Assembly: GCA_903834475.1 (NCBI GenBank)
Contig: CAILJH010000030.1
Span: 1 to 41,393, forward strand
DNA: 41,393 nucleotides
From: an uncultured Prolixibacteraceae bacterium
Lineage (GTDB): Bacteria; Bacteroidota; Bacteroidia; Bacteroidales; Prolixibacteraceae
Direction: 5' to 3'
Of the stretch, positions 2,147 through 8,817 are shown piece by piece. Below the pieces are notes generated by a model. The model saw only the letters and a program-made list of their open reading frames with translations. It was not told the origin of the DNA and ran no database searches. The translations under genes were made by a program, and so were the position numbers. Numbering within the stretch: position 1 is the stretch's first letter; each line of letters starts with the position of its first letter.

Positions 2147-3814
2147 TTAATCTTTAATCAAAGGTAAAGTTACTGATAAGGTTGTCCCATTTCCAAGTTC
2201 CGACCTGACCTGGATTTTTCCTTTATGGTTTTGTATAATTCCGTGAACAATTGCCAGGCCCAAACCTATTCCACTGACATCCTGCTTAGTCGAAAAGAAA
2301 GGCTCAAAAATATGCGGAATATCTTCCGGAGCAATTCCAAGTCCGTTATCTGAAATTTCAAAGACAACAGAATCTTCATCCGGATTATGGGTTTTAATCA
2401 AAATCTCGCCATTTTCGAGTACCGCCTCAGAAGCATTGACAAGCAGGGCGATGCAGGCTTGTTTAATCTGGTTTGGATTACAGTATATCAAATCTGATTT
2501 AGCCGAAAGATCTTTCAAAAAGCTGATGTTGGCAATTCGAATCGAATGAGTCATCAAATCATACGTTTCCTGAAGTATTTCGTGCAAATGCTTTGGTTCA
2601 AAATCGTTCTGATCCTTTCTCGAAAAATCGAGCAATCCTTTTACAATATCACCGCAACGCTTCGTTTCATTTTCAATCAGCTTCAAATGCTTCAGCATCG
2701 TATCTTTTTTTGCTGCATACAATTCAGGATTACTAACCTGTTTATGCAATAGTTTCGTGTAAATCAGAATTCCGGACAAAGGGTTATTAATTTCATGGGC
2801 TACCGACGATGACAATTTCCCCAATGAAGCAAGCCTTTCTACATGCATCAGTTCATTCTGAGCAGCCCCCAGTTCCTCTGACTTTTTCTGAACTTTATAT
2901 TCGAGTTGCTGAGACCAGTTTTCCAATTCATCATTTGCAGTATGCAAATTATCGAGCATATCGTTGAATGCCACTGAAACCATCCTCATATCATCCAATT
3001 GGTTGGGTTTTATTTCTACCCGTGTACTTTTATCTCCATTTGCCACCGCGATGCTGACTTTTATTAACTCGTTGAGAGGATCTTTAATTTTCTTCCGGGT
3101 GAATACCAAAAGAAATGAAACGAGCAACAAAGTTGCAAATATGGCCAAAAGGAAAAATTCTGTGGATGATTTTTCAATTGCAGCGTCCTGTGCTTCCAGT
3201 GGAATTTTGATGACCAATGAGCCAAGTATTGTATCTGTTTCAAGATGTGCATGACAGTCGCTGGTGGAACAGGATCTTTCGTTTAGAATTGGAGACCGGA
3301 TTAACAAATGCCTGCTGCTGTTATCATTCAGATTCATCGTACAATCGCTGTTCACCTCAACTATCTTATAGGACCTTTCTTTCCCGGGGAACATCGACTT
3401 GATGTTCGTATGGCAATTGATGCAATTCGGGTCGCTGTGCCCGCTGTTTGTATCATTCGTAAACGACGAATAAACCAAACTATCACGGCCATCATACATG
3501 TTCACCTCATCAATACCCGGCATTTTATTAATAATATCCAAGGTATTCTGAAGAGCACTTTTGTCGTTCTCGAGCATCGAATGGTATAACGATCCTTTAA
3601 CAATGGCACCGATATTGTTTCCGCTCTGGCGAATGACGGTGTTGAGATATTGCTCGTTGACTGACCTGAAAATTACATTAAACGAAACGAACAGAAAAAT
3701 AGATAAAAAGGTGATGATCAACACGACCCGGCCATAAATTGAAGACCTGAATTTCACGTAATTCTTCAGGATTAACTTCCCCGTATTGTTTTTATGTTTC
3801 TTATTGAAAAGCAT
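2147..3814 (-). CDS. Sensor histidine kinase with heme c-like motifs in the periplasmic domain
   Basis: A 555-aa membrane kinase: TM1 about 28-48, periplasmic domain about 50-217, TM2 about 218-238, HAMP about 239-292, short coiled coil, HisKA with phospho-acceptor His340 (motif SSVAHEINNPL), and a HATPase domain with N and G boxes (DNGLGIAP around 489-496, GIGLGLAIV around 515-523). The periplasmic part carries CINCH at 131-135, a canonical CxxCH heme c site. It also carries CSTSDCH at 182-188, a CX4CH variant known from some multiheme proteins. This suggests covalent heme and sensing of periplasmic redox state, oxygen or NO. It forms an operon with the NtrC-type regulator and amzA. Heme attachment is predicted from motifs only. 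Confidence 0.9.
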   Translation of the reverse strand: MLFNKKHKNNTGKLILKNYVKFRSSIYGRVVLIITFLSIFLFVSFNVIFRSVNEQYLNTVIRQSGNNIGAIVKGSLYHSMLENDKSALQNTLDIINKMPGIDEVNMYDGRDSLVYSSFTNDTNSGHSDPNCINCHTNIKSMFPGKERSYKIVEVNSDCTMNLNDNSSRHLLIRSPILNERSCSTSDCHAHLETDTILGSLVIKIPLEAQDAAIEKSSTEFFLLAIFATLLLVSFLLVFTRKKIKDPLNELIKVSIAVANGDKSTRVEIKPNQLDDMRMVSVAFNDMLDNLHTANDELENWSQQLEYKVQKKSEELGAAQNELMHVERLASLGKLSSSVAHEINNPLSGILIYTKLLHKQVSNPELYAAKKDTMLKHLKLIENETKRCGDIVKGLLDFSRKDQNDFEPKHLHEILQETYDLMTHSIRIANISFLKDLSAKSDLIYCNPNQIKQACIALLVNASEAVLENGEILIKTHNPDEDSVVFEISDNGLGIAPEDIPHIFEPFFSTKQDVSGIGLGLAIVHGIIQNHKGKIQVRSELGNGTTLSVTLPLIKD

Positions 3815-3881: not shown

Positions 3882-3909
3882 AAAAAAAACTGGTGCTCTC
3901 ACACCAGTT
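3882..3909 (-). terminator. Rho-independent terminator of the HybA/HybB-like operon
   Basis: Read on the minus strand, an 8-bp stem (AACTGGTG paired with CACCAGTT, 6-nt loop) runs straight into eight T residues. It sits about 80 nt after the stop of the GcvH-like gene and about 70 nt before the sensor kinase start. It therefore separates the PstS-GcvH/HybA/HybB/GcvH operon from the kinase/regulator/amzA operon. This is the clearest intrinsic terminator in the window. Confidence 0.85.
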
Positions 3910-3987
3910 CCATAATAATCTTTTTCTTCATCTAAAAGCAAATCAGGAAGATAAAATTAGATTGAATTTCATAGAACTAACTGGTGT

Positions 3988-4710
3988 TTAAAGCCGGTCA
4001 GAATTTAAAAATTCGTTCTGAAAATCCTTCCATATTTCTTCAGGCAATGTCGATAGTGAATGATCACAGATTTCGCCACCATCCTGCATAATAATCATTG
4101 CCGACTCAGGAGAATAATTCCGTGTGGTTCGGGCCAGAAAATCCTTAAACCGATTAAGTTCCTGAATTGAAAACTCTGTAGCTTCCTCAGCAAAATAACA
4201 TGACTTTGTTTCTTCAATCCAGTTGGAGGGTTTAATTTTATAAATCCAACCTTTGCCGTAAGGATCTTCAATCAGCTCACCATTGCTTTCATTCAGTGCT
4301 AAATTTGTATTCGTAATTACACCTGAAACAGGCGAAAATATTTTCAGAAGCTTACCGCTCTGATCAATCTCTGTCAGCAAATCTCCTTTACTGATCGTAT
4401 CTCCTGGAGTTTTAAGGGTCGTGAATTTTACTTTCCCGGTAATGTGCAGAAGCAGATCATCGAGCCCAACCTTGGCTGTTCCGGTCTTTTCCATGTGCAT
4501 CCAGGTGTGATTCCGGAAATAAAACAAGCCTTGGGGAATCCGCAGAATGTTTGCAGAAAGAACACCGATCGCCTCCTGAATCTGTTTGGTAATTCTGGCC
4601 TGTTTATTCAATATGATCCAAAAAGGAATCAGTAAGACAAGGAAAGCAATAATAACCAGGTACTCAATACCTTTAGTTTCGAAAATATTAAAATAACTAA
4701 ATCCGTCCAT
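3988..4710 (-). CDS. Membrane-anchored GcvH-like (lipoyl-fold) protein lacking the lipoyl lysine
   Basis: A 240-aa protein: one N-terminal membrane helix (about 15-35) followed by basic residues, which places the rest in the cytoplasm. A complete glycine-cleavage H-protein fold (about 59-165) follows, then a C-terminal tail (about 166-240). H-protein landmarks are clear: the HTW start, VG at 81-82, PVSG at 127-130 and a GW..KI..S strand near 154-162. The lipoyl-lysine position, eight residues before the PVSG proline, is Gly119, with Lys120 one residue late; the usual E-S-V-K context is missing. It is unlikely to serve glycine cleavage. The tail (QDGG...D..L..L..E.W.DFQ..F) is shared with the C-terminus of the PstS-GcvH protein four genes upstream, so the two are paralogues. 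It is the last gene of the operon. Function unknown. Confidence 0.75.
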   Translation of the reverse strand: MDGFSYFNIFETKGIEYLVIIAFLVLLIPFWIILNKQARITKQIQEAIGVLSANILRIPQGLFYFRNHTWMHMEKTGTAKVGLDDLLLHITGKVKFTTLKTPGDTISKGDLLTEIDQSGKLLKIFSPVSGVITNTNLALNESNGELIEDPYGKGWIYKIKPSNWIEETKSCYFAEEATEFSIQELNRFKDFLARTTRNYSPESAMIIMQDGGEICDHSLSTLPEEIWKDFQNEFLNSDRL

Positions 4711-4758
4711 TTGTTTATTTTTTGTGCCTCCACCAAAACCGGTGAATGCGGATTAATA

Positions 4759-5985
4759 TTATTCTTTTTCAGTTGCCCAGGATGGGGAATCACGCAGAAC
4801 CGGCATACGGTTAATAACCCACCTGAAAATCCATATTTCTGTAAATATTACGGCCATCGTGACTACAAATTCCATCCAGGACGGAACATACCGGATAGCC
4901 ATATCCCACCTGAATCCAATGACCGTAACGTTCAATCTGTTCAGAATGACACCCAGCATGGTCAGAATGGCAGCAACTTTGACCATCAGAATACTGTTTG
5001 TCCTGTAGCTGTAAAAGAAAAGGATCATCGGCAACAATACAAAACCGAGCATCTCAAGCATAAACCAGTAGCCCATCGGAGTATTTAGAAGATCCCAGTG
5101 TTGTTCGTGTATAAAGACCAACATTTTCAGGAAAAAGTATGCAAACATGGTTCCGGCGCAGATTTTAGCTAATCCGTGGATAATTGTGTTTTGAGACTTG
5201 TGATTTTTTTCGCTGATCTGACTAAAGAATACTCTGTGACTGATCGATCCTTCGAAAATCACCATGGAAAGTCCGGCGAAAATACTGGAAACAAAAAACA
5301 TAATCGGGATAAATTCTGAATACCAAAGCGGATGAATTTTATCTTTTGCCATCAGGTAAAGTGCTCCAAGTCCCGATTGGTGGAGAGTTGAAAGTGTGAT
5401 ACCGAAAATAACGGCGGCAATGGTCATTCCTGAAAGTATTTTATGAGCACGTCTGGCTCCAAGCCATTCGGCAATTGCCGGCGAAAACTCAATTAATTGT
5501 GCGATCATGTAAAGCAGAAAGTGCCATGCTACAAGGAACAAAACGGAACTTACACCAAAGCCGTTTCCGATAATCGGATTAATCACGTGCCATGGTCTGC
5601 CAAGATCCAAAAGCAATGCCCCGGCATAAAATACATAGGCGAGAAATCCATTCAAAACGGTTACCCTGACAATGGAATGATATTTTTGCATGTTCAGGAT
5701 GTAAACCATGAATGTCAGTACATAAGCACCTCCGGCAAAGGCAACGCCAGTAACCACATCAAAACCAATCCACAATCCCCAGGGAGTATCCTGAGTCAGG
5801 TTCGTGATGGAGCCAATTCCATAAATGAAACGATAAACGATCAGCCCCAGTCCTAAAAGCATAATTGGAATTGAAATGATATTGAAAGGTGTCAGGAATT
5901 TACCTTTGGGGTTCATTTCGCTTAACAGAAATTTCCAGATGGATTTGCCATCATGATCGATTGCTATCGGATAATTAGTATTCAT
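4759..5985 (-). CDS. HybB/NrfD-family integral membrane quinone-site subunit
   Basis: A polytopic protein of 408 aa with about ten membrane helices. It resembles HybB of hydrogenase-2: WGLWIGFDV early in the protein, and LSTLHQSGLGALYL followed by HPLWYS in the middle. HybB/NrfD proteins bind menaquinone and exchange electrons with a periplasmic ferredoxin. The start is taken at 5985 (MNTNYP). An upstream in-frame ATG at 6060 would add 26 residues lying inside the preceding gene. With the 5985 start, the gene overlaps the end of the HybA-like gene by 11 nt, suggesting translational coupling. No hydrogenase, molybdopterin or cytochrome catalytic subunit is adjacent, so the reaction cannot be assigned. 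Confidence 0.85.
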   Translation of the reverse strand: MNTNYPIAIDHDGKSIWKFLLSEMNPKGKFLTPFNIISIPIMLLGLGLIVYRFIYGIGSITNLTQDTPWGLWIGFDVVTGVAFAGGAYVLTFMVYILNMQKYHSIVRVTVLNGFLAYVFYAGALLLDLGRPWHVINPIIGNGFGVSSVLFLVAWHFLLYMIAQLIEFSPAIAEWLGARRAHKILSGMTIAAVIFGITLSTLHQSGLGALYLMAKDKIHPLWYSEFIPIMFFVSSIFAGLSMVIFEGSISHRVFFSQISEKNHKSQNTIIHGLAKICAGTMFAYFFLKMLVFIHEQHWDLLNTPMGYWFMLEMLGFVLLPMILFFYSYRTNSILMVKVAAILTMLGVILNRLNVTVIGFRWDMAIRYVPSWMEFVVTMAVIFTEIWIFRWVINRMPVLRDSPSWATEKE

Positions 5986-6838
5986 CTTCTTCTTGCTTTT
6001 TATGTTGATTATTCTTTGTAGCCTGATGTATGCCCAATAAAATCGTAGGAAAAAGGACAAATACAGAGGGCACGCTGTAAAGGAATCCTTTTGTCAATGC
6101 TGGATAAGATGATTGCTGCAGGTTGGTTTTCATGCCCAATTCTTCAAAAGGAACGGAAGCAATATAAAGCCATCCGGTACCACCTGCATCGTGTTCACCA
6201 TAAATTTGATCGACATACAAATCAGGTTTTTCATAGATTCTGCGGCGCGCTTCTTTTATCAGGTCCCTTCGGGTACCATACATCAAGGCTTCATTGGGGC
6301 AATTAGTTACACAAGTTGGTTTTTCTCCCGCTTTCTGCCGATCGAAACACATATCACATTTCTGAATTTTTGGATTTGCACTGTGAAATTCAAATTTTGG
6401 CATATCAAACGGACAGGAAACCATACAATATCGGCAACCCATGCATTTATCACCATTCCAGGTAACCGGACCAGTTTCATTTTTATGCATGGCCTGAGTG
6501 AGGCAGGCGGCAGCACAAGCTGGCTGATTACAATGCATACATTGTCTCTTGATGTAAACTTCACCTTTCGAAGTCTGATAAGTATTGACAACCGTGTTGC
6601 ATGTTTCATCCGTTTTGCGCACAGCTGCAACTTCTGATAAAGGTTCAGGCAATCCGTGTGCCTTGGCACATTCATATTCGCAGGTACGGCAACCCACACA
6701 ACGCGATGAATCATAGAGAACCCCGTAAAATTCCACTTCATTTTTGTTGGTTGGTTTGGCCACTGATTCTTTTCCAATGGCCAGCGTTATTCCGGTAGCT
6801 CCCAACAATTTAAAAAATACTCTTCGGTCTAAGCCCAT
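5975..6838 (-). CDS. Tat-exported HybA-like ferredoxin with four [4Fe-4S] sites and a C-terminal membrane anchor
   Basis: A 287-aa protein. A twin-arginine signal (DRRVFFKLL near residue 5, then a hydrophobic stretch) indicates folded export to the periplasm. Sixteen cysteines form four clusters: C47/C50/C53/C57, C100/C103/C108/C112, C132/C135/C138/C142 and C161/C164/C176/C180. A hydrophobic helix at about 252-272 near the C-terminus matches HybA, which is anchored next to HybB. The expected role is an electron wire between a periplasmic donor or acceptor and the quinone site of the HybB-like protein encoded next. The closest families are HybA, DmsB and NrfC; the C-terminal anchor favours HybA. 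The partner catalytic subunit is not in the window. Confidence 0.88.
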   Translation of the reverse strand: MGLDRRVFFKLLGATGITLAIGKESVAKPTNKNEVEFYGVLYDSSRCVGCRTCEYECAKAHGLPEPLSEVAAVRKTDETCNTVVNTYQTSKGEVYIKRQCMHCNQPACAAACLTQAMHKNETGPVTWNGDKCMGCRYCMVSCPFDMPKFEFHSANPKIQKCDMCFDRQKAGEKPTCVTNCPNEALMYGTRRDLIKEARRRIYEKPDLYVDQIYGEHDAGGTGWLYIASVPFEELGMKTNLQQSSYPALTKGFLYSVPSVFVLFPTILLGIHQATKNNQHKKQEEDEY

Positions 6839-6885
6839 GATTATAGATTTTGATTGGTTTTTAATTTTGAAGTCAATGAGTTGAA

Positions 6886-8574
6886 TTATTTTCCCTGATC
6901 CATAAATTTAGTCTGAAAATCTTCCCACACTTCTGGTCCAAGGTCAGCCAGGATGCCGTCCTTCAGTGATCCTCCATCCTGATAAACGACGTAAGCAAAT
7001 TCCGGAGTTTTAAAAGCTGTGGCGAAAAAATCCTTTAATCTTGAGAATTCCACTTTCAACCATGATTTATATTTTTCGGCCATACTTAAGAACTGAATCT
7101 CACGTATCCAATTGGAAGGTTCGATAAGGTAAACCCATCCCTCATAATATGGTGCGGTATTTAGCAGCGATGAATGATTAATCAGGATTTCATTTTTCTC
7201 TTTTATTATTCCTGAAACAGGGGAATAGATATTCAATTTTTTCCCCTGTCGGATTATAGTCAGAAACTTGTCTCCTTTTCTTATCATTTCTCCTGGATTT
7301 TTCATCTCAATACGGGTAATGGTGCCGGTTACATGCTGCAGAAAATCATCGATTCCGATTTTCACCAAACCGTCTTTTTTCATAAAAGCCCAGGTATGCG
7401 ATTTGTCGAAGTAAAGTCCTTTTGGGACATTGACAGAATTTTCATCAAAAACAGGAACTATTGCTAAAGGTATATCCTGCATGGTCCCTTTCTTATTACT
7501 TATTCTTCGAAATACCAAATCCAGCGCGAAACCAATCGCGACGATGGCGACGATGACCAACAGCAAAACTTTAAGAATAGCAGAGGTGCTATTTTGCGGT
7601 GCTACAGTATAAATATCAGGTTCTGAGAACTTATCTAACTGTGTTTGTCTTTCGCTGTATACCAGATCGCTATACCCATTCTTACTTAAATATTGTTGTC
7701 CATCCGTAAGCACCCATTTCAAAAATGCCACTTCGGCTTCATTCTTTGGCTTTCCTGAAGAAACTGAATAAATATTTCCGGACAGTGCATTAGGATATTT
7801 TCCAATCCATACTCCTCGTGAGAATGATTGTAAATTATCGTATATGTTTTCCATGTAGTCAATCTTCCCGTTGCCGTTTCTATCAATAGGAACCAGCTTA
7901 ATATTTTCAATTATATTTTGGCTATTGCCATCAACAATTTGAATCAACTTGCAAAAGCCCATTGCGTTGGGGTCTTTCTGAATTGCTGAAATCAATTCAT
8001 TTTCATTAACTACATTAATTCCAATAGTCTTTATCTGACTGACCTTTATAAAATTAGCAAGTCCGGATAATACAGATGCATCGTTAGTAACATAAAAATG
8101 AACTGGAATATTTTGAGAGTTATTCAGCAGTTTCCCCCAATTCTGATATTCAGACTTTTCGAAAATCATAGCTAATCTTTCCGATGAAACTCCTTTACTG
8201 ATAATTTCATTCATCAAAGGATTAACGCCATTCATTATTGGTACAATCACATCGTGAGCAACTTCAATATTCCAAATTTCCTGATTTTTAACAGAATTAT
8301 TCGATTCATCGCCGATAAAACCTATCCCCGAACCATTGCTCAACATTCGAGGGATATTATTACCCGCAGCCGTTATTACCTTAATTTTTACGTTTGGATT
8401 TAAACTTCCGTATTCATTGGTCCACTTCAAGGTCAAATTATAGGTTTCCGGAGAAGCAAACACTTTAATACTACCCTCTTTAGAAGGATTATTTACAATT
8501 TCAGTTTCTTTACTGTCTGCAATACTGCAACTTAGCAAAAATAGTCCGATAATTAAAATGATCTTTGTTTTCAT
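6886..8574 (-). CDS. PstS-like binding lipoprotein fused through a membrane helix to a GcvH-like domain
   Basis: A 562-aa fusion. Start chosen at 8574 because the sequence then opens with a lipoprotein signal (lipobox LLSC, Cys16); the longer frame from 8670 adds 32 unlikely residues. About 30-320 is a periplasmic substrate-binding domain of the PstS/molybdate-binding type. It contains an EF-hand-like loop DRNGNGKIDYME (231-242). A membrane helix (about 332-356) followed by RRISNKK puts the remainder in the cytoplasm. About 385-490 is an H-protein-like domain ending in SPVSG (451-455), with Gly444 where lipoyl-Lys should be and Lys445-Lys446 beside it. A tail (about 491-562) is shared with the 240-aa paralogue. 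It is the first gene of the operon. There is no ABC permease or ATPase nearby, so phosphate transport is unlikely; a ligand sensor coupled to the redox proteins is more plausible. Confidence 0.72.
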   Translation of the reverse strand: MKTKIILIIGLFLLSCSIADSKETEIVNNPSKEGSIKVFASPETYNLTLKWTNEYGSLNPNVKIKVITAAGNNIPRMLSNGSGIGFIGDESNNSVKNQEIWNIEVAHDVIVPIMNGVNPLMNEIISKGVSSERLAMIFEKSEYQNWGKLLNNSQNIPVHFYVTNDASVLSGLANFIKVSQIKTIGINVVNENELISAIQKDPNAMGFCKLIQIVDGNSQNIIENIKLVPIDRNGNGKIDYMENIYDNLQSFSRGVWIGKYPNALSGNIYSVSSGKPKNEAEVAFLKWVLTDGQQYLSKNGYSDLVYSERQTQLDKFSEPDIYTVAPQNSTSAILKVLLLVIVAIVAIGFALDLVFRRISNKKGTMQDIPLAIVPVFDENSVNVPKGLYFDKSHTWAFMKKDGLVKIGIDDFLQHVTGTITRIEMKNPGEMIRKGDKFLTIIRQGKKLNIYSPVSGIIKEKNEILINHSSLLNTAPYYEGWVYLIEPSNWIREIQFLSMAEKYKSWLKVEFSRLKDFFATAFKTPEFAYVVYQDGGSLKDGILADLGPEVWEDFQTKFMDQGK

Positions 8575-8608: not shown

Positions 8609-8624
8609 TTCAAATCTGATGCCA
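8609..8624 (-). promoter_or_regulatory. Candidate sigma-54 (-24/-12) promoter of the PstS-GcvH/HybAB operon
   Basis: Read on the minus strand, TGGCATCAGATTTGAA matches the consensus TGGCAC-N5-TTGC(A/T) at the -24 GG, at TGGCA and at TTG. It has A instead of C at the -12 position. Spacing is exact. The implied start is near 8598, giving a leader of about 24 nt with an AGG about 8 nt before the ATG at 8574. A sigma-54 activator is encoded in the same region, and several dyads lie 70-220 bp upstream where enhancers would be. The -12 mismatch is the main weakness. Confidence 0.42.
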
Positions 8625-8665: not shown

Positions 8666-8817
8666 AACACAATTAGTGTTTAATAAACACACAGTCGGAA
8701 ATGGTGAATAATTCAACACTGTTTGTTTATTTAACAAATAAGATTCAGTTTACCAGCAGTTTAGCGGAAGTGTATATTTTATATACACCTGCAGAATTTA
8801 TCAACACAATTGTTGAT
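8666..8817. promoter_or_regulatory. Cluster of inverted repeats, possible activator binding sites
   Basis: Five dyads fall within 152 bp of otherwise featureless AT-rich DNA: AACAC/GTGTT (8666-8680); GTGTTTA/TAAACAC (8676-8690, overlapping the first); TTTGTT/AACAAA (8722-8738); GTGTATAT/ATATACAC (8770-8788); and ATCAACA/TGTTGAT (8800-8817). They lie between the divergent PstS-GcvH and nuoA genes. Four of the five carry a GTGTT/GTGTA or TGTTGAT-type half-site. They could be enhancers for the NtrC-type regulator, or sites for a Crp/Fnr-family factor acting on either operon. Binding is inferred from symmetry only. Confidence 0.4.

Follow-up and report, generated by a model that had tools for sequence, protein, structure and literature searches.

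A conserved seven-gene module combining a predicted diheme sensor kinase with an HmcBC-type electron-transfer pair in Bacteroidota and other phyla

The window analysed here, 41,393 nucleotides of contig CAILJH010000030.1 (assembly GCA_903834475.1) from an uncultured Prolixibacteraceae bacterium, carries seven genes on the − strand (8574-239) that encode PstS-GcvH, a fusion of a PstS-type domain with an H-protein-like domain; the electron-transfer proteins HmcB and HmcC (together HmcBC); GcvH2, a membrane-anchored GcvH-like protein (TM-GcvH); a histidine kinase; a response regulator; and an archaemetzincin (AMZ). An original prediction, made from the sequence alone, had proposed the first four as a redox-sensing unit. 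All four were found, closely packed on the − strand (8574-3988), and they are not chance neighbours. The unit is real but incomplete, as the diheme kinase, the sigma-54 regulator and AMZ (3814-239) belong to the same conserved unit, and the four genes are one half of a conserved seven-gene module. This module is found repeatedly across Bacteroidota, with variant forms in Desulfobacterota, Ignavibacteria and Gemmatimonadota. We propose that its two gene groups make up a module for signalling and electron transfer; that it works as set out below has, in our judgement, slightly less than an even chance. The features of the window are as follows (TM, transmembrane segment; AF2, AlphaFold2).

6886-8574, − strand: PstS-GcvH, with a degenerate PstS-fold periplasmic domain, one TM, a lipoyl-less H-fold and a C-terminal helical DGG extension (Pfam, AF2, Foldseek, alignment)
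5975-6838, − strand: HmcB/HybA-like ferredoxin subunit with an RR signal, four 4-Cys cluster motifs and a C-terminal TM (NCBIfam, hydropathy; signal and motifs by eye)
4759-5985, − strand: HmcC/HybB-like membrane subunit of the NrfD family (Pfam NrfD, NCBIfam)
3988-4710, − strand: GcvH2, with an N-terminal TM, a lipoyl-less H-fold and a DGG extension (Pfam, alignment to 1onl and 3a8i, family alignment)
3886-3911, − strand: intrinsic terminator separating the HmcBC and kinase operons (stem of 11 pairs and a run of T)
2147-3814, − strand: membrane histidine kinase whose periplasmic part has two c-heme motifs (CINCH, CSTSDCH) (Pfam HisKA, HATPase_c, HAMP; motifs conserved)
791-2134, − strand: NtrC-type sigma-54 response regulator with REC, AAA+ and HTH_8 domains (Pfam)
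239-781, − strand: AMZ with a complete zinc motif (NF033823, 160.3 bits, cut-off 145)
8609-8624, − strand: sigma-54-type promoter site TGGCAT-N5-TTGAA (comparison of upstream regions)
8701-8719, − strand: enhancer-like dyad of the GTGTTGA-N5-TCAACAC type (pattern match)
8770-8788, − strand: enhancer-like dyad GTGTATATAAAATATACAC (pattern match)
8789-8807, − strand: enhancer-like dyad, weaker match (pattern match)

The start of HmcC overlaps the end of HmcB (5985 vs 5975). PstS-GcvH, HmcB, HmcC and GcvH2 form the first gene group, and kinase, regulator and AMZ the second; the predicted terminator was located between them, at 3911-3886. Hydropathy placed one TM each in PstS-GcvH (336-354, after the PstS domain), GcvH2 (15-33, near the N terminus) and HmcB (C-terminal), and about 10 in HmcC, in agreement with the predicted topology. 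The earlier description of PstS-GcvH as a lipoprotein is doubtful: the N-terminal Cys is present in the window protein but absent from at least two module relatives (L104 and L128).

Distribution of the module

Open reading frames (ORFs) were called with a simple longest-ORF script, which made errors in several loci (e.g. L073, L081, L275 and L276); the Desulfobacterota counts given below were for this reason obtained by tblastn. Within the same genus, full-length GcvH2 (E <1e-79) was found in 19 of 22 genomes. At 20 loci of relatives, all seven genes were present in 14, with order and orientation kept; the other six lay at contig ends (L086, L103), were reduced (L095, L101, L102) or had no recognised kinase (L094). 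In genome G326, an HmcBC operon (L094) and a kinase-regulator-AMZ set (L095) occupy separate loci, each with its own PstS-GcvH. Among 20 loci from other classes of the phylum, taken as best H-fold matches, 11 encode an H-fold protein, HmcB, HmcC, kinase, regulator and AMZ without a PstS domain. GcvH is present by design in the locus sets L064-L083 and L268-L287, which were chosen as best H-fold matches.

A further set of loci was anchored on AMZ. It comprises the best 80 (L104-L183) of 356 confirmed relatives obtained by scanning a species-genome collection with the AMZ alignment; since this module's AMZ sequences were used, AMZ is there by selection, and the set leans towards near relatives. 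For counting, 59 of the 80 loci were used, 18 being dropped for less than 8 kb of upstream sequence and three for want of a called AMZ ORF, and a gene on the same strand was scored as a partner if it lay between 9.5 kb upstream and 6.5 kb downstream. Some genomes are shared between locus sets (L091 with L158, and L102 with L157). The regulator was present in all 59 loci, the kinase in 58, an H-fold protein in 50, PstS in 43, HmcC in 42 and HmcB in 40. The full set including a heme kinase occurs in 35/59, with carriers such as Draconibacterium orientale FH5T (L161), Maribellus sp. CM-23 (L156) and an uncultured Sunxiuqinia (L130). A reduced set of PstS-GcvH, heme kinase and regulator occurs in 7/59, carriers including Draconibacterium mangrovi (L155) and Mariniphaga sediminis (L157). 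An H-fold protein together with HmcBC, kinase, regulator and AMZ was found at two Ignavibacteria loci (L175, L178) and one Gemmatimonadota locus (L183), and a core of heme kinase, regulator and AMZ in Zixibacteria (L177, L182) and Latescibacterota (L166). One contig filed under an alphaproteobacterial metagenome-assembled genome (L122) bears a reduced module of the Bacteroidales type with an AMZ 65% identical, possibly reflecting a misnamed genome or a misassigned contig. The DNA of the four-gene group gave no match in a plasmid collection.

Conserved co-occurrence of the four families across Bacteroidota and Desulfobacterota had been suggested as a check, and the families do co-occur in both. 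The Desulfobacterota sample was a draw of 198 genomes from the phylum of G365, taken as Desulfobacterota (the locus L167 of G365 is from Desulfuromonadales, and the Syntrophaceae genome G368 is included). A profile of the membrane-anchored H-fold family matched 73/198 genomes at E <=1e-28, a count that includes GcvH of canonical length. At the top 20 loci, AMZ was found in 17, regulator and kinase in 16 each, HmcB in 14 and HmcC in 13, and kinase ORFs with two heme motifs in 10. In three of these 20 loci the block includes a gene for a small tetraheme class III cytochrome: between HmcC and kinase in L273 and L278, and between GcvH and HmcB in L277, which also has a second GcvH-cytochrome-HmcB-HmcC block.

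Two-component proteins, HmcBC and promoter sites

The motifs CxxCH and CxxxxCH were present in every module-type kinase listed, and two non-module kinases (L065 16745 and window 39621) lack them. Where the full context of the AMZ-anchored loci was considered, both motifs occur in 42/42 kinases beside Hmc genes and in 13/16 kinases without Hmc genes; these counts accept a C-x5-CH variant (L135, L136) and are not an independent sample, because the loci are related. In modules of the Bacteroidales type, the kinase is the sole protein of the unit in which c-heme motifs were noticed. In one relative, at L091 (11513-14852), the diheme kinase is duplicated in tandem. A fold search returned kinase cores or whole kinases, and none of the 50 matches listed was informative on the heme domain.

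Kinase and regulator have the features of a sigma-54-dependent two-component system, namely a histidine kinase, a REC-AAA+-HTH_8 regulator with the GAFTGA motif (73/78 regulators called in AMZ-anchored loci), a sigma-54 gene in the genome (5/5 genomes tested) and a sigma-54-type promoter. The third protein of this group is an archaemetzincin (M54) by its motif HExxHxxGxxHCx4CxM...CxxC and its curated score. The residues of the zinc motif are invariant in 15 aligned sequences, and the full motif is present in 72 of the 78 module-type AMZ called at AMZ-anchored loci.

Both subunits of the electron-transfer pair scored below the cut-offs of their nearest NCBIfam families, the HmcB protein with 323.6 bits for HmcB (cut-off 420) and 227.5 for HybA (cut-off 263), the HmcC protein with 395.3 for HmcC (cut-off 550) and 249.6 for HybB (cut-off 450). 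The latter was above the cut-off for Pfam NrfD (49.4 bits), and its sequence had no match among solved structures at E 0.01. An NrfD membrane subunit next to an exported four-cluster ferredoxin (clusters and export signal assigned by eye) is the arrangement of SirCD and CbcTU, and HmcBC is best read as a putative quinol:periplasm electron pair of this type, tied to a diheme sensor kinase.

The predicted sigma-54-like promoter was located at 8624-8609 (TGGCAT-N5-TTG), 50 bases upstream of the PstS-GcvH ATG. The pattern TGG[CT][AT][CT]-N5-TTG occurs within 140 bases of the PstS-GcvH start in 59/62 loci (56/59 distinct), the 62 being those of 64 PstS-GcvH-type ORFs with enough upstream sequence. 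It was found at 6/459 non-module ORFs of L104-L183, whose starts were script-called and partly wrong, and in a mean of 0.05/62 shuffled regions. Dyads of the type GTGTTGA-N5-TCAACAC (at most 4/14 mismatches) were present in 62/62 upstream regions vs 11/62 shuffled ones, in a comparison in which the pattern was derived from the same regions and the shuffles preserve nothing beyond single-base composition. Two to four copies are found in most loci, most commonly spaced by 19 and by 87-89 bases, and the commonest distance from dyad to promoter is 74-76 bases (37 dyads). In the 160 bases upstream of the kinase start, no sigma-54-type site was found in 54/54 loci, and a dyad in 2/54. The layout of these sites marks the dyads as putative binding sites of the module's own regulator.

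Genome-wide, dyads with one mismatch vs a backward control numbered 20/8, 42/21, 54/22, 41/19 and 22/22 in five genomes. As this is about twice the control in four of the five, further sites may exist; among the matches listed, only the module's sites lie close together. A composite of half-dyad and sigma-54 site gave 33 matches vs 27 in the control over 10 genomes. This search was insensitive, because among the matches listed only one module promoter (G303) was recovered.

The proposed electron path and its main alternative

In the mechanism that we propose, the response regulator would activate the PstS-GcvH/HmcB/HmcC/GcvH2 group via the enhancer-like dyads. HmcC would take electrons from menaquinol, or return them, and HmcB would carry them to the periplasmic side, where they could reach c-type hemes, either the kinase's own two or cytochrome c3 where it is present. 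Since the kinase is the only noticed c-heme protein of the Bacteroidales-type unit, the simplest path there would lead from menaquinol via HmcC and HmcB to the kinase hemes. The kinase might thus read how reduced the quinone pool or the periplasmic electron carriers are and adjust the amount of HmcBC complex. The H-fold proteins may serve as membrane-anchored cytoplasmic docking or signal parts rather than as lipoyl carriers, and the PstS domain as a scaffold in the periplasm instead of a receptor for ligands; AMZ probably acts on a protein of the module or partners the regulator in the manner of CarG. To our knowledge, no dedicated electron wire from the quinone pool to a sensor kinase is known. 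That a dedicated Fe-S/NrfD quinol dehydrogenase wires the periplasmic c-hemes of the kinase to the quinone pool, while H-proteins without a lipoyl group and a PstS domain without a ligand act as transmembrane signalling scaffolds and AMZ as a regulatory protease, is a tentative proposal, which we consider possible but clearly below an even chance.

Several observations weigh against the mechanism set out here. The most serious is that nine genome entries with a reduced module (PstS-GcvH, kinase, regulator and AMZ) gave no HmcC match; G325 and G357 seem to be a single assembly, leaving eight distinct. The heme kinase is hence not dependent on HmcBC as its sole source of electrons, and its signal in these genomes comes from another source, or HmcBC is output and not input. 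Moreover, the kinases of the core loci L164, L167 and L176 lack the heme motifs, and the predicted structure of the kinase is weak around the hemes, with a predicted local distance difference test score (pLDDT) <50 at 120-130 and 135-148. Finally, neither the dyad scan of five genomes nor the composite scan of 10 gave a clear further target of the regulator.

The main alternative is that HmcBC and the H-fold proteins are output only. They would then perform quinone-linked electron transfer to a periplasmic acceptor and be activated by a heme kinase that responds to a different signal, such as the redox state of a free cytochrome, a gas or an oxidant. This would fit the position of the sigma-54 site and the dyads, which precede the HmcBC operon and are missing (sigma-54 site) or rare (dyad) before the kinase, and also the persistence of the kinase half without HmcC. 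However, the output of the reduced modules would be PstS-GcvH alone, so that the constant target there is the H-fold protein and not HmcBC. The heme motifs in all 42 kinases beside Hmc genes are likewise what would be expected if electrons were shared. We hold this alternative to be about as tenable as the wire itself; an input role, in which HmcBC feeds the predicted kinase hemes, carries about a third of our confidence, and an output role about the same.

PstS and H-fold domains, the hydrogenase question and related systems

The redox theme of the original prediction stands, as does its view of the genes as a conserved unit, but sensing of a ligand or oxyanion by the PstS domain does not. 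The domain was recognised by Pfam PBP_like_2 (33.2 bits), and the AF2 model of PstS-GcvH (mean pLDDT 82.1, predicted template modelling score 0.51, domain arrangement uncertain) keeps a PstS-type fold, with Foldseek matches to phosphate-binding proteins (4jwo, E 4.3e-17). Fourteen of the 54 PstS-GcvH sequences were aligned with eight free PstS paralogues, and three loop motifs common to the eight, which we take to be the anion-binding loops, are lost in 14/14 module domains. Oxyanion sensing was for this reason rejected as the leading reading of the domain. An EF-hand-like loop (DxNxNGxIDxxE), shared with free Bacteroidota PstS paralogues, keeps D231 and E242 in 54/54 sequences, so that some ion may bind. 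This loop, the PstS fold of the predicted structure and the single TM between PstS and H domains would suit a sensor that reports a periplasmic ligand to the H domain and the quinone pool across the membrane; given the lost loop motifs and the loci outside the Bacteroidales-type set that encode an H-fold protein without any PstS domain, we judge such sensing very unlikely.

The H-fold domains scored 78.6 bits (PstS-GcvH) and 75.0 bits (GcvH2) with Pfam GCV_H, and 67.3 and 65.9 bits with the equivalog TIGR00527, below its cut-off of 115.85. The H-fold of the PstS-GcvH model resembles the glycine cleavage H protein 1onl (Foldseek TMt 0.93, 30% identity). Unlike that protein, the module's H-fold proteins have a membrane anchor, no lipoyl Lys and a C-terminal DGG extension. 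In the family alignment of the membrane-anchored proteins, which have an added N-terminal TM and the extension, DGG is invariant in 20/20 sequences. Aligned to 1onl and 3a8i, the window proteins have Gly in place of the lipoyl Lys, and the lipoyl column contains Lys in only 1/70 module-type sequences (L071; 72 were aligned, two being fragments without the column). The canonical GcvH of 12 relatives keep the lipoyl Lys (12/12, read from the alignment), and a lipoyl carrier role of the H-like domains was rejected. In PstS-GcvH, the lipoyl position is Gly in 54/54 and the following residue is Lys (K445) in 54/54. Modification of this adjoining Lys could in principle still make the domains carriers, but it stands one residue off the lipoyl position and is not conserved across all of GcvH2 and the other classes, and we consider this reading even less probable than ligand sensing. 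REC-GcvH gene fusions of about 386 and 268 amino acids, two in tandem, were found at L031 (the same place as L083, in genome G132) and L032; at L083 they adjoin a diheme kinase and HmcBC. These fusions directly link the H-fold domain to two-component signalling.

No hydrogenase or other catalytic subunit is consistently encoded beside the homologues. Clustering of the ORFs from 121 sources (the window, L064-L103 and L104-L183) gave six module families with 79-108 loci each and no further family in more than 10 loci, with minor clusters that are mostly unannotated and a method that very diverged subunits would escape. The next commonest family (10 loci) had an ABC-F-type ATPase as its single scanned member. 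By the same measure, HmcA and HmcD-F do not accompany HmcBC as a further family in >10/121 loci, no profile search for Hmc subunits having been made. The large subunit of [NiFe] hydrogenase (PF00374) was matched in 3/11 genomes, always on a contig other than that of the module; one of the three is the window genome (G000:C242:3252-4811). The other eight genomes gave no match to PF00374, in a search that did not cover other hydrogenase types such as [FeFe], and all eight keep HmcBC. We therefore consider it the least likely of all readings that HmcBC work in trans as orphan subunits of a [NiFe] hydrogenase, despite the large subunit on another contig of the window genome and despite Hmc and Hyb subunits being the nearest curated families.

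The Hmc complex of Desulfovibrio resembles HmcBC in that it gives the best NCBIfam matches of both subunits and combines a periplasmic Fe-S protein with a membrane NrfD protein, and in that some loci have a class III cytochrome next to HmcBC; the module differs in scoring below both cut-offs and in being tied to H-fold proteins, a heme kinase, a sigma-54 regulator and a metzincin. In ArcB and RegB/PrrB, kinase activity is tied to quinones or respiratory electron flow, as in the proposed module, but we know of no dedicated Fe-S/NrfD pair beside them and of no c-heme sensor domain in them. The PstS domain shares fold and EF-hand-like loop with Bacteroidota PstS and differs by the loss of the loop motifs, by fusion to a TM and an H-fold, and by a setting without a further family in >10/121 loci. 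SirCD of Shewanella, which pairs an Fe-S with an NrfD protein, is a quinol dehydrogenase that supplies periplasmic respiratory pathways, and like CbcSTU (Cbc4) of Geobacter it resembles HmcBC in passing on quinol electrons; the available part of that source mentions no kinase, H-fold or metzincin partners (PMC11434368). CarG of Myxococcus xanthus is an archaemetzincin-fold protein that works in transcriptional regulation and is catalytically inactive (PMC3427221), unlike the module's AMZ, most of which keep the full zinc motif.

On the opposite strand of the window, an ORF from 9177 opens a complex I operon (by eye), and the region 9177-37870 (+ strand) contains complex I genes as well as cbb3-type and aa3-type oxidase genes, the latter two also assigned by eye. 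The organism thus looks capable of oxygen respiration.

Each part of the module is of a known kind, and the combination, a two-component system tied to a quinone-linked electron-transfer complex, looks to be undescribed; no description was found in open-access full text, a weak test confined to such papers. Three little-understood groups acquire a shared context in the module: archaemetzincins of bacteria, H-proteins that are membrane-anchored and lack the lipoyl Lys, and Hmc/Hyb-like BC pairs that have no catalytic partner. It spans several phyla, and its carriers include strains with assembled, named genomes; as both full and reduced forms occur in such strains, the idea of an electron wire can be tested by comparing the two. 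If the idea is true, the kinase would read respiratory electron flow via a dedicated electron-transfer complex, and the module as a whole looks like a way to sense or control that flow.

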